Assembly (NCBI GenBank): GCA_030065235.1
Contig: JASJDC010000002.1
Span: 830,001 to 894,000 of the forward strand
DNA length: 64,000 bases
Origin: Alphaproteobacteria bacterium
Lineage (GTDB): Bacteria > Pseudomonadota > Alphaproteobacteria > UBA8366 > Aestuariispiraceae
Reading direction: 5' to 3'
Part shown: one piece after another, positions 27,268 to 44,520 of the stretch
Layout of the letters: every line of letters starts with the position of its first letter
Numbering within the stretch: position 1 is the first letter of the stretch
Notes under the pieces: model-generated
The model's database searches: none
Seen by the model: only the letters and a program-made list of their open reading frames with translations
Told to the model about the DNA's origin: nothing
Made by a program: the position numbers and the translations under genes

Positions 27268-28092
<825 letters not shown>

Positions 28093-28122
28093 TCCGGAGC
28101 GCGCCCCCACAGGACCTGACCC

Positions 28123-28872
28123 ATGACGCCCGAAGAAACCGAACCGCCGCATAATCACATCGTCAAAGCCTATGACGATGAAATCGCGCGCCTCAACCAA
28201 CTCTTCACGGAGATGAGCGGCGTGGCGGAGGCGCAGCTGGACGGGGCCCTGCGCGCGGTGGCGCGGCGGGACGAAGAGATGGCCGATCAGATCCGGCTCG
28301 GCGACCGGCGGCTTGACACATTGGACACCGAGATCGATGCGCTGGTTGTCCGCATGCTGGCGCTGCGTCAACCGGTCGCCAACGATCTGCGGCTGATCAT
28401 CGGCATGTTGCGCGCATCCTCCGATATCGAACGGATCGGCGATTACGCCAAGAATATCGCCAAGCGGGTGCCGGCGCTGGTCGCGATGCCGGTCACGCCG
28501 CATACACGCAGCGTCATCCGTCTTGGCCGTCTGGTTCAGGCGATGCTGAAGGATGTGTTCGACGCCTACGCCGATCAGGACATCGCCAAGGCGATCTCGG
28601 TCTGGGAGGCGGATGAAGAGGTCGACGAGCTCTATACCAGCGTCTTCCGCGAGCTCCTGACCTATATGATGGAAGACCCGCGCTACATCACCACCTGCAC
28701 GCATATGCTGTTCATCGCCAAGAATCTTGAGCGCATCGGCGACCACGCCACCAACATCGCTGAGACGCTGCACTACCAGGTGTCAGGCGAGCGGCTGGAT
28801 GAGCGGCGGTCCAAGGCGGATGAATTGGGCCCCGACATGCTCGATGGCGATTCGCCAGAGCGCGCGCCCTAG
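28123..28872 (+). CDS. phoU: phosphate signalling complex protein PhoU
   Basis: 249-residue all-helical protein that couples PstSCAB transport state to the PhoR kinase. It contains two PhoU three-helix repeats; the metal-binding motif ERIGDYAKNIAKR (first repeat) and ERIGDHATNIAE (second repeat) are both intact. It starts 30 bases after pstB. Confidence 0.96.
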   Translation: MTPEETEPPHNHIVKAYDDEIARLNQLFTEMSGVAEAQLDGALRAVARRDEEMADQIRLGDRRLDTLDTEIDALVVRMLALRQPVANDLRLIIGMLRASSDIERIGDYAKNIAKRVPALVAMPVTPHTRSVIRLGRLVQAMLKDVFDAYADQDIAKAISVWEADEEVDELYTSVFRELLTYMMEDPRYITTCTHMLFIAKNLERIGDHATNIAETLHYQVSGERLDERRSKADELGPDMLDGDSPERAP

Positions 28873-28905
28873 CAGACCGAACTGAACGATCGACAGAGGG
28901 GTTCG

Positions 28906-29598
28906 ATGAAACCGCATGTTTTGATCATTGAGGACGAGACGGCTGTCGTCACCTTGTTGCGCTACAATCTAGAACGCGACGGGTTCGAGGTCAGCGTCGC
29001 GATGGACGGGCGCGAGGCGCTGATGGCGGTTGACGAAAACCCGCCCGACCTCGTTCTATTGGACTGGATGCTGCCGGAAATGTCGGGGATCGAGCTGTGC
29101 CGTCAATTGCGCCGCAAGCCGGTGACCAAATCCATGCCGGTGATCATGCTAACGGCGCGGGGCGAGGAGGCGGACAAGGTGCGTGGGCTCGACGCCGGCG
29201 CCGACGATTATGTGACCAAGCCTTTCAGCCCGGCCGAACTGGTCGCCCGCATCCATGCGCTGCTGCGCCGGTCGCGGCCTGTCCTGGCGGACGAGCGGCT
29301 GACGGCGGCGGATATCAGCATGGACTTGGCCGCCCATCGCGTGCATCGCGGCGGCGAAGAGGTGAAGCTGGGCCCGACCGAGTTTCGCTTGCTGCGGCAC
29401 TTTCTGGAATATCCGGGCCGCGTCTTCAGCCGCGAGCAACTGTTGGACGCGGTCTGGGGCCGCGACGTCTATGTCGAGCCGCGCACGGTCGACGTGCATA
29501 TCCGGCGCTTGCGCAAGGCCCTGAATAATCCGGAGAACAGCGACGTGATTCGCACGGTGCGCTCCGCCGGCTATGCGCTGGAGCCGGAAGGCGCATAG
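28906..29598 (+). CDS. phoB: phosphate regulon response regulator
   Basis: OmpR-family transcription factor, 230 residues. Receiver domain at about 1-120 with phosphoacceptor Asp53 (VLLDWMLPEMSG) and VTKPFSP lysine. The winged-helix domain is at about 130-228 (PTEFRLLRHFLEYPGRVFSR; RTVDVHIRRLRKAL). It binds Pho boxes such as that at 22577-22609, closing a loop on its own operon. The cognate kinase gene phoR is not adjacent. Confidence 0.95.
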   Translation: MKPHVLIIEDETAVVTLLRYNLERDGFEVSVAMDGREALMAVDENPPDLVLLDWMLPEMSGIELCRQLRRKPVTKSMPVIMLTARGEEADKVRGLDAGADDYVTKPFSPAELVARIHALLRRSRPVLADERLTAADISMDLAAHRVHRGGEEVKLGPTEFRLLRHFLEYPGRVFSREQLLDAVWGRDVYVEPRTVDVHIRRLRKALNNPENSDVIRTVRSAGYALEPEGA

Positions 29599-41197: not shown

Positions 41198-41497
41198 ATG
41201 TCGGGCATAGAAATGGATCGCGACACGATCAAACGCGAGGTTGAGGAGCTCAGCCAGGAGATCGATCGCGTCGGCAGTTTCGCGCAAAATATCGACAAGA
41301 TCGCCAAGCAGACCAATCTGCTCGCTTTAAATGCGACCATCGAGGCCGCGCGCGCCGGGGACGCCGGGAAAGGGTTCGCCGTCGTGGCCGGCGAGGTGAA
41401 GACGCTGTCGAGCGAAACGGCGCGGGCGACGCAGGAAATCTCGGAGGTCGTGGACGGCCTGCGCTCCCGGATCGAACGTCTCAACGCAAAACTATAA
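41198..41497 (+). CDS. stand-alone chemoreceptor (MCP) signalling hairpin
   Basis: 99 residues consisting almost only of the kinase-control tip of a methyl-accepting chemotaxis protein. [23 protein letters not shown] and [17 protein letters not shown] (about 34-70) are the hairpin turn that in full receptors binds CheA and CheW. The flanking antiparallel helices are short (about 30 residues each side). No sensor domain, membrane segment or HAMP domain is encoded. The frame has a normal start (GGTGAGGAACGGCGC then ATG) and stop, so it looks like an intact small gene, though it could be a remnant of a larger receptor. Confidence 0.75.
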
Positions 41498-41693
41498 ACT
41501 CAGGGCGTTTGCCAGCGTCAATCGCCGGGCCAACCGTTTCTAAGCGGGCTTGGAACGACAGTGTTTCCGTCCCCTGCCTGGATTGATGGGCGGTTTCGCC
41601 GTTAGACAGAGCAGCGCGTGACGTTCCAATAAAGGGTCGCGCGTCTGCACCAACGTCATGCAGAGAGCCGCTGAAACGCGATCGAGGACCGTG

Positions 41694-42941
41694 ATGACCG
41701 CTCCATCCGCCGCGCCGCCGCAACTCGCGGGTCTTTCCGCGACGGTCAAGCTTGTGATTTGCGCCGCTTGCCTGATCTCGCTGATCGGCTTTGGGGTTCG
41801 GTCCGGCTTCGGCCTGTTTCAAACCGACCTGATCGCCGCACGCGGATGGGGACGTGAAGAGTTCTCGATCGCCCTCGCCGTCCAGAACCTGCTTTGGGGC
41901 GTCGCCTTGCCTTTCGCCGGCATGTTGGCCGATCGGTTCGGCTCGCGCGTGGTCCTGGCCGTCGGGGCGCTGATCTATGCGGCCGGCGTTTACGGCATGG
42001 CGACCGTCGAGACCCGGTCATTATTCTATATCGCCGGCGGCGTGATCACCGGCGTCGGCGTGGCCTTCACCGCCTTCACTCTGGCGATGGCGGCGATGGC
42101 GAAACTCGTGCCGCCTGAACGGCGCAGCCTGATCTTCGGGATCGGCACCGCTGCCGGCTCGGCCGGTCAGGTGGTGTTCGCGCCGCTCAGCGTCGCCTTC
42201 ATCGACGCCTTCGGCTGGGGCGACGCGATGATGATCATGACCGGCTTCGCGCTGCTCATTCTGCCGCTGGCGCTGCTCTTGCCGTCAAGCCCGTCTACGG
42301 GCGGCGCGGACGGGTCGGCGTCGCTGTCGATGGGCGACGCGATCCAAGAGGCGCTCAGCCATCGCGGCTATATCCTGCTCACGGTCGGGTTTTTCGTTTG
42401 CGGCTTTCATGTCGCCTTTATCACCGTGCATTTCCCGGCCTATGTCGAGGATCTGGGGCTTGCCGCTTCAGTCGGCGCGACGGCTCTGGCGCTGGTCGGC
42501 CTGCTGAACATCGCCGGCGCCTTCCTCAGCGGCCTGGTCGGGCAGAAATGGAGCAAACGCTATGGGCTGAGCGCGATCTATTTTGCGCGCGCCATCGCCA
42601 TCACCCTTTTGCTGATCGCGCCAAAGACCGAGGTCACGATCTACGCCTTCGCCGCCGCCATGGGGATCCTGTGGCTCTCGACGGTTCCCTTGACCACGGG
42701 AATCGTCGCCCAAGTGTTCGGCGTCCGTTACATGGCGACGCTGTTCGGGTTCGTGTTCCTGAGCCACCAGTTGGGCAGTTTTCTGGGTGTCTGGCTGGGC
42801 GGCTATCTCTACGATCAGTACGGAACCTATGACGCTGTCTGGTGGGCCGGGGTGGCGTTGGGATTTCTCGCGGCGGTCATTCATCTGCCGATCGACGAAC
42901 GGCCGATTGAACGCCCGGCGGCGCCGGCGCCCGCCGAATAG
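41694..42941 (+). CDS. MFS transporter (monocarboxylate/oxalate-type)
   Basis: 415 residues, about 12 membrane helices. FGVRSGFGLFQTDLIAARGWGREEFS near the start, ADRFGSRVVL (motif A) and QLGSFLGVWLGGYLYDQYGTYDAVWW near the end resemble OFA/MCT-type carriers for organic acids. Starts at ATG 41694 after GAGGA; frame open from 41658. Substrate unknown. Confidence 0.86.
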   Translation: MTAPSAAPPQLAGLSATVKLVICAACLISLIGFGVRSGFGLFQTDLIAARGWGREEFSIALAVQNLLWGVALPFAGMLADRFGSRVVLAVGALIYAAGVYGMATVETRSLFYIAGGVITGVGVAFTAFTLAMAAMAKLVPPERRSLIFGIGTAAGSAGQVVFAPLSVAFIDAFGWGDAMMIMTGFALLILPLALLLPSSPSTGGADGSASLSMGDAIQEALSHRGYILLTVGFFVCGFHVAFITVHFPAYVEDLGLAASVGATALALVGLLNIAGAFLSGLVGQKWSKRYGLSAIYFARAIAITLLLIAPKTEVTIYAFAAAMGILWLSTVPLTTGIVAQVFGVRYMATLFGFVFLSHQLGSFLGVWLGGYLYDQYGTYDAVWWAGVALGFLAAVIHLPIDERPIERPAAPAPAE

Positions 42942-42969: not shown

Positions 42970-43551
42970 CTAGAGATCGAGCGGCGTTTCGAGCAAGGCC
43001 GAATAGGACAGCGTATCGTCTTGCGCGAAGAAAGGGATGTCGGCGTTCCGCGATTCTCCGAGCCGCAGTTCGACTTGAAAAGACAGTATCTGCGACGCCG
43101 CCTCGCCATCGTCGCTCAGAGGGGTCACCAGTCGGCCGAGCTGGCGGATCGACCCGCCGGTCCGAAATTCGGTCTCCGAATAGATCGCCCGCATTTCTGA
43201 CGCAGCGCGCCGATAGATGCCGCTGATATGGGCGTTGTAGTCCGCGTTGTCGGTCAGCGCCGACAACGTCCGCCCGGTCACGTCTTGGCCGATGAGGCTA
43301 TATTGTCCGGTTCCAGCCAGGCGGATCCGAAAATCGTCGGCTTCACGGTCCGCCAGAACGATCCAAGGGAGCAGGCCGGACGGAATCTCGGTCGGATCGA
43401 CGTCGCGCCTGCGCGGCGCCCGTCGTCCTTGGCGCAGGGACGCCCAATAGTCGGCGCCTGCGCGCAGGCGCTCGTCCTTGATCAGCCCGGCGATGCGAGT
43501 GGCCACCGAGGACTTCTCATCTGTTTGCGAGGCGATGCTCGAATAAGGCAT
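42970..43551 (-). CDS. PAS_5-family single-domain PAS protein
   Basis: 193-residue cytosolic protein from ATG 43551 (AGGA 10 bases upstream; alternative ATG 43581 has no ribosome site). The block YWASLRQGRRAPRRRDVDPTEIP followed by LPWIVLADREADDFRIRLAGTG is the signature of the PAS_5 family (PF07310), in which a short N-terminal helix precedes one PAS sensor domain and no output domain is attached. In Caulobacter the single-domain PAS protein MopJ acts on the CtrA cell-cycle and motility circuit; whether this is its counterpart needs a domain comparison. Confidence 0.82.
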   Translation of the reverse strand: MPYSSIASQTDEKSSVATRIAGLIKDERLRAGADYWASLRQGRRAPRRRDVDPTEIPSGLLPWIVLADREADDFRIRLAGTGQYSLIGQDVTGRTLSALTDNADYNAHISGIYRRAASEMRAIYSETEFRTGGSIRQLGRLVTPLSDDGEAASQILSFQVELRLGESRNADIPFFAQDDTLSYSALLETPLDL

Positions 43552-43615
43552 TCGGTTTAGATTCCTGCCAGCCGGCCGCATTGCGACCCGAATGGCGGAC
43601 TATGCGCCCAAGGGA

Positions 43616-43630
43616 TTAATTTTTCCTTAA
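43616..43630. promoter_or_regulatory. CtrA-type site TTAA-N7-TTAA
   Basis: TTAA at 43616-43619 and 43627-43630 with exactly 7 bases between, plus a third TTAA at 43635, in an otherwise GC-rich genome. It lies 65-79 bases upstream of the PAS_5 gene (minus strand). The spacing equals the CtrA consensus; binding is inferred. Confidence 0.6.
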
Positions 43631-43785
43631 ACCGTTAAACCCTGCGACACAGTGGTGAATCTAAAGCCTCGCCGACCTCTCGAACGGTGTGATCACGCCG
43701 CTGTTCAGAATGGTTTGCCGGACGGCGAGAGGCCCGACCGAGGCGGCGCGACCCTATTCAGAAAGGCGTTCAGCGCGAGTAGCGG

Positions 43786-44520
43786 TCATTGATGGGAGCG
43801 CGCGACGCCGACCGCGCCCGGCACGACAACCAGGCGGCGTCGCGCCACGGGCCGCGCCGTGCTGGCGGCGTAAATCTGTTTTGTCGCTTCCACCATCAAG
43901 ACCCCGCCGAAGCGGGTGAACAGTCGTTCGCCCAGCCGCTCCATGGGTTTTGAGAAACGATGCATCAGCGGGCTCGCCGAGGGCGGCAGATACAGCGCGC
44001 GGTCGGACTCGCCCGGTTCGAACTGACAGTCGCGCAACAACCGGCTCAATTGGCCATGGCTGAACGGTTTGCCATGACCAAAGGGCGTGCGTTCGTTGCG
44101 CGACCAAAAGCCGCGGCGCGCCGGGGCCACGACGATCATCTTGCCGACGCCGTTCAGCACCCGCCAGCACTCGCGGAGCGCCTCGCGCATGCGTTCTGAA
44201 TTCTCCAGTGAATGGACCAGCAACAGCCGGTCGATGGACAAGTCGCTGAGCGGCAATTGTGTTTCTTCGGCAAGGGCGACCAGACCCTGTTCGGCGCGCG
44301 GCCAGTGCGTGACGCCCTGGTTCGCCGGCATGACGGCCACGACCCGCTCGGCCTCGCCCCGAAACTGCTTCAGATAGGGCGTCGCATAGCCAAAGCCTGC
44401 GACCGCCTGTCCGCTGACATTGGGCCAAAGATGGCGGATCTTCTTCTCCAATAGGCTGCGGGCGATCCGCCCCTGTTTGGAGCGGTAGAAGGCGTTCAAA
44501 TCGACGACATCGGTCCACAT
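43786..44520 (-). CDS. class I SAM-dependent methyltransferase
   Basis: 244 residues. SAM-binding strand and loop AVAGFGYATPYL at about 39-50, acidic Asp/Glu region, LLLVHSLENSERMREALRECWRVLNGVGKMIVVAPARRG (Methyltransf_11 fold, in shorter blocks). Substrate unknown. This type commonly lies head-to-head with gloB in alphaproteobacteria, as it does here. The 204 bases downstream (to 43582) carry the PAS_5 promoter region. Confidence 0.82.
   Translation of the reverse strand: MWTDVVDLNAFYRSKQGRIARSLLEKKIRHLWPNVSGQAVAGFGYATPYLKQFRGEAERVVAVMPANQGVTHWPRAEQGLVALAEETQLPLSDLSIDRLLLVHSLENSERMREALRECWRVLNGVGKMIVVAPARRGFWSRNERTPFGHGKPFSHGQLSRLLRDCQFEPGESDRALYLPPSASPLMHRFSKPMERLGERLFTRFGGVLMVEATKQIYAASTARPVARRRLVVVPGAVGVARSHQ

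Follow-up and report, generated by a model that had tools for sequence, protein, structure and literature searches.

A single-domain PAS_5 gene with a probable CtrA-type site upstream in an alphaproteobacterium of the Aestuariispiraceae

The 64,000-nt window analysed here, from an alphaproteobacterial genome of the family Aestuariispiraceae, contains a gene for a single-domain PAS_5 protein, with an exact TTAA-N7-TTAA motif upstream that is probably a functional CtrA-type site. As far as sequence comparison goes, the product is most likely a single-domain PAS_5 protein specific to its lineage that is expressed alongside chemoreceptors as part of a CtrA-type regulon. The explanation preferred here, and held with modest confidence, is that it would be a cytoplasmic, sensor-only protein, placed under CtrA by the TTAA-N7-TTAA site, belonging to the same expression set as chemoreceptors, and docking on a partner sensor.

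The PAS_5 gene and its protein

The gene occupies 42970–43551 on the minus strand. Its open reading frame begins with ATG and encodes 193 amino acids; a 203-amino acid reading is also open, from an ATG at 43581. Pfam places PAS_5 (PF07310) at residues 30–155 of the 193-amino acid protein (56.6 bits, gathering cut-off 22) and finds no second domain over its cut-off, hence no output domain. A first-pass annotation, made from the letters and the predicted translations, had described a single-domain PAS_5 protein of 193 residues without an output domain, and the PF07310 match and the lack of any other domain bear this out. The top-scoring relative has 41% identity.

The AlphaFold2 model, built from four sequences, has a PAS fold (pLDDT 79.5, pTM 0.77), with an additional C-terminal strand at residues 182–190. 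With this model Foldseek ranks LOV and VqmA structures first, and VIA-align ranks VqmA (Z 10.8) and other PAS domains first; by sequence, no solved structure matches at E up to 1. The PAS fold is common to this protein, short single-domain LOV proteins, PYP, and other stand-alone PAS domains, but identity to these top fold matches is low (5–21%). The high Foldseek rank of LOV structures suggests a photoreceptor at first glance. LOV photochemistry requires cysteine, however, and there is none in the 193 residues, so on this chemistry a LOV photosensor is excluded.

On one side, the gene converges with a gene for an MFS transporter (41658–42941, plus strand; Pfam MFS_1, 152.4 bits), which serves as the synteny anchor with Hwanghaeella. 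On the other, upstream side lies a minus-strand methyltransferase gene (43786–44520; Methyltransf_11, 31.8 bits), whose end borders the gap with the PAS_5 promoter. A further small gene, at 41198–41497 on the plus strand, 160 bases before the MFS gene, encodes a 99-amino acid protein consisting of a chemoreceptor signalling tip alone (MCPsignal, 100.2 bits); the regions retrieved around both Hwanghaeella orthologues, described below, contain no counterpart of it.

The upstream site

TTAA occurs on the plus strand at 43616, 43627, and 43635, spanning 65 to 87 bases from the PAS_5 ATG. The first two copies form TTAA-N7-TTAA (43616–43630, 65–79 bases before the start codon; an exact match, unstranded), and the third lies at 43635–43638, an arrangement that the first-pass annotation had given correctly. 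TTAA is scarce in the window (33 copies seen, vs. ~65 expected from base composition), and three copies within 30 bp are found upstream of the PAS_5 gene alone. Both genes bordering the gap that contains them (43552–43785) are on the minus strand, which leaves the PAS_5 gene as the only one that the site can serve.

The pair could conceivably have arisen by chance in an AT-rich promoter gap, in which case the gene would be an ordinary PAS_5 paralogue under other control, with no part for CtrA; this is unlikely, though by no means negligible. The exact pattern occurs once in the window, against a mean of 0.05 in dinucleotide shuffles, and the fact that 5 of 100 shuffles yield at least one match gives chance some room. 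In the whole genome, exact TTAA-N7-TTAA is found nine times in 4.18 Mb, fewer than the 21 occurrences of the reversed control AATT-N7-AATT, and the raw count therefore does not speak for the site. The evidence against chance lies instead in the spacing between the TTAA copies, in the genes behind the sites, and in the orthologues, and is given with each of these.

CtrA in the genome

The genome encodes CtrA, at 388.2 bits against a cut-off of 350 for the equivalog model NF045991, and the ctrA promoter itself has a 7-of-8 match to the site, TTAACCGATTTTAA. About 1 kb after ctrA there is a second, partial CtrA-like winged-helix stretch (L056, 1501–1599; G000:C7:253092-253190; 26 bits), which looks like the 3′ end of ctrA in a broken or truncated second copy. 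The best Trans_reg_C match, which lies in the window at 28906–29598, was considered as a candidate CtrA and rejected, since it scores as PhoB (equivalog, 349.8 bits, cut-off 296.2). It belongs to a pstB-phoU-phoB-like run at 27268–29598, in which pstB and phoU are named from reading of the sequence and PhoB is over its equivalog cut-off.

According to the accessible portion of a study of Hyphomonas, CtrA was found bound there to TTAA-N7-TTAAC, intergenic DNA held 211 of the 222 sites, and other species are known to have closely similar motifs (PMC7200025). The site before the PAS_5 gene resembles those of other alphaproteobacterial CtrA regulons, as far as that portion describes them, both in having TTAA-N7-TTAA(C) and in being intergenic, as nearly all of them are. 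The predicted CtrA regulons of other alphaproteobacteria are enriched in several classes, signal transduction and cell motility included, again from the part of the source at hand (PMC2877005). PAS_5 is not named as a recurrent class in the accessible parts of either source (PMC7200025, PMC2877005), whereas here it emerges from sequence alone.

Spacing of paired TTAA

Paired TTAA copies with 0 to 16 bases between them were counted by hand in the own genome, and 50 of the 52 places found were tallied. N7 accounts for eight and N11 for seven; the spacings from N1 to N16 other than N7 average ~2.5 each, and the N7 excess has a Poisson probability of ~0.0015 with the mean set at 2.6. The tally gives one shortest match per place, which may undercount longer spacings. 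Four relatives (G003, G007, G002, and G010) have 46 N7 sites between them, against 66 for N8 to N10 combined, a mean of ~22 for each of those three (Poisson 5e-6). By genome, N7 is in strong excess in G007 (10 N7 vs. 4 for the three other spacings) and G002 (8 vs. 8), and in weak excess in G003 (17 vs. 30) and G010 (11 vs. 24). N7 is the preferred spacing of paired TTAA in this genome and its relatives, which argues against a chance origin of the pair.

Genes behind N7 sites

Genes downstream of exact N7 sites were collected from seven of 14 family genomes: the own genome (G000), G001, and G004, for which all sites were listed, and G002, G003, G007, and G010, which have few sites. This gave 128 sites (129 in the script count, one site being in two loci). 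Genes were called by our own codon-score script, not a standard caller, both here and in the spacing control. Four sites fall inside called genes, and 108 lie no more than 350 bp from a gene start; 140 downstream genes became 137 when three duplicates were dropped before the Pfam scan.

Among these 137 distinct genes the commonest families include MCPsignal (10), PAS_5 (9), HisKA (8), and HAMP (8). In the other genes of the same loci, 140 of 243 of which were Pfam-scanned, PAS_5 and MCPsignal are outside the 25 commonest families, the 25th of which has two members. A PAS_5 HMM of our own finds 11 genes behind N7 sites and one elsewhere in the same loci. By genome, the 11 are divided among G004 (four), G003 (three), G007 (two), G000 (one), and G010 (one), with none in G001 or G002. 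In 10 of the 11 the site is 39–166 bases from the gene start; in the remaining one the distance is 289, probably because the start has been called too late. Chance would place ~0.7 PAS_5 genes behind N7 sites, or 1.3 if half of all genes own a promoter, given a background of 138 MopJ-model matches (140 used in the tests) in ~29,000 genes, the latter number being estimated from genome sizes. One G004 case (from its coordinates) and one G003 case (from a listing) were already known before the test of gene classes. Without the present gene, PAS_5 makes up eight of 136, still in excess (p 6e-5 against the expectation of 1.3).

A spacing control was done in five genomes. PAS_5 genes make up seven of 57 genes behind N7 sites and none of 53 behind N8–N10 sites (74 sites in the script count, 72 listed), for a Fisher probability of 0.008, or 0.016 without the present gene. 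This is the second point against chance. One N10 site, in L307, overlaps a called PAS_5 start and is one base outside the search range; counting it raises the probability to 0.036, and to 0.06 if the present gene is excluded as well. A link between PAS_5 genes and N7 in this family is therefore likely rather than proven. For chemoreceptors the same control gives four of 57 vs. two of 53, a difference too small to count.

Two results keep chance in consideration. At one mismatch, the upstream regions of 53 family PAS_5 genes have no N7 peak (11, the same as N4 and N6); with 11 PAS_5 genes at 129 exact N7 sites and no clear peak at one mismatch, the signal is confined to exact sites. Among 94 PAS_5 loci from many families, exact N7 was found at one, that of the present gene, and the idea that N7 marks PAS_5 genes in every family is therefore rejected.

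The own genome's nine sites include one followed by an MCPsignal gene (L043) and one with an MCPsignal gene second in line (L041), as well as one preceding a HAMP/PAS sensor (L046) and one preceding a PAS/HisKA sensor (L047).

Orthologues in Hwanghaeella

Among 30 MFS loci examined, PAS_5 is found beside the same MFS gene in two, those of Hwanghaeella grinnelliae (G003; NZ_SADE01000002.1) and a Hwanghaeella metagenome-assembled genome (G008; JANQIT010000353.1). Hwanghaeella is placed by NCBI in Rhodospirillales, Aestuariispiraceae; the source organism belongs to the same family and a different genus. G007 and G002 have kept the MFS gene, at 66–67%, with no PAS_5 within 1,500 bases. The Hwanghaeella metagenome-assembled genome has a tandem PAS_5 pair beside the MFS gene (L124, 5941–6540 and 6553–7245), and H. 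grinnelliae has one copy.

The best local alignment of the two Hwanghaeella upstream regions is a 26-base block, the only one that can be aligned, whose score is reached by none of 200 shuffles. It contains TTCA-N7-TTAACC, with seven of the eight site bases, in both of the two syntenic orthologues, at −92 to −78 counted from the TTG taken as start codon; in the present genome the site is at −79 to −65. Aligned with each of these, the own upstream region scores no higher than shuffled sequence (79 and 93 of 200 shuffles do as well). A conserved block in the orthologues is the third point against chance. The first-pass description of the motif as CtrA-type is thus supported: CtrA is encoded, N7 is favored, chemoreceptor and PAS_5 genes are found behind N7 sites in the family, and a one-mismatch site precedes both orthologues.

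GANTC sites

Two GANTC sequences lie within 250 bp upstream of the PAS_5 gene: one at 43560–43564, nine bases before the start codon, which may be a CcrM-type methylation site, and one at 43657–43661, about 106–110 bases before it (both unstranded). They suggest another possibility, that the main control, whether or not CtrA takes part, resembles that of mopJ and works through GcrA together with methylation of GANTC by CcrM. The upstream regions of the 11 N7 PAS_5 genes contain 16 GANTC in all, against 0.59 per gene in 228 others (Poisson 0.001), but this comparison was made post hoc, and the 53 family PAS_5 genes, at 0.66 per gene, are near background. The excess at N7 genes is therefore only a lead, GANTC as a general mark of PAS_5 genes is rejected, and GcrA as the main control seems improbable.

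Comparison with MopJ

In Caulobacter crescentus, MopJ (CCNA_00999) consists of a single PAS_5 domain, lacks an output domain, and is localized to the pole through DivJ and PopZ. In the accessible part of the paper describing it (PMC4432633), it ends in two alanines resembling a ClpXP signal; its gene is activated by GcrA, has a methylated GANTC in its promoter, and is induced by (p)ppGpp. The present gene is like mopJ in its single PAS_5 domain, its lack of an output domain, and its upstream GANTC. It differs in that the protein ends in LDL rather than AA, and in having a CtrA-type site where the mopJ promoter, in the part of the source at hand, is controlled by GcrA, CcrM, and ppGpp (PMC4432633).

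The first-pass annotation had suggested that this gene could be the counterpart of MopJ. Were it a MopJ orthologue, it might reinforce CtrA accumulation through DivJ and DivL, and besides the shared domain and GANTC it is the best of five MopJ-model matches in the own genome (~58.5 bits, next 50.0). That margin of 8.5 bits over the next paralogue is too small for orthology to be called, however, and the score of ~58.6 bits is far from the curated cut-off of 200 for the MopJ equivalog (NF051868). No protein in the own genome is over this cut-off, and none in any of the 14 family genomes, while the Caulobacter control passes. The own genome has seven PAS_5 proteins, relatives have up to 32 matches each, and other paralogues in relatives reach up to 104.7 bits against the MopJ model. 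With the LDL ending as well, orthology to MopJ is very improbable and is rejected, and the first-pass suggestion falls with it. The same annotation had mopJ itself under CtrA control; this was not found in the accessible part of PMC4432633, which describes GcrA, GANTC methylation, and (p)ppGpp.

Possible role

If the preferred explanation holds, that of a sensor-only PAS_5 protein under CtrA, the gene would be transcribed from its own promoter, with CtrA bound at 43616–43630, and its product would come from a fast-evolving set of paralogues. CtrA would set its expression, whether up or down, together with that of chemoreceptors and other signalling genes. The PAS core may bind a small ligand and dock onto another sensor protein as its partner, much as MopJ acts on the DivJ/DivL pathway, though without being a MopJ orthologue.

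Extended to the family as a whole, this becomes rather speculative: CtrA might control a whole series of single-domain PAS_5 proteins together with chemoreceptors, and these proteins would pass on what they sense of ligands, either to the CtrA phosphorelay or to the chemotaxis array. The PAS_5 proteins of such a series could, just as tentatively, be interchangeable cytoplasmic sensor modules, with MopJ a distant and separately recruited example. In those portions of the literature searched that were accessible, no account was found of PAS_5 genes repeatedly lying behind exact CtrA-type sites in this family; a search for PAS_5 with CtrA returned the MopJ paper alone, and one for PF07310 returned none. 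Single-domain PAS_5 proteins are numerous in the family genomes, and MopJ is the only one for which a role was found in the literature searched. If several of them are CtrA targets, this would suggest a shared role for the set, in motility and cell-cycle sensing, and the site would single out the paralogues of highest priority. Another PAS_5 gene of the own genome is preceded by TTAA-N12-TTAA and by a sequence that agrees with the N7 site in seven of eight bases (G000:C1:239926-239945; L005).
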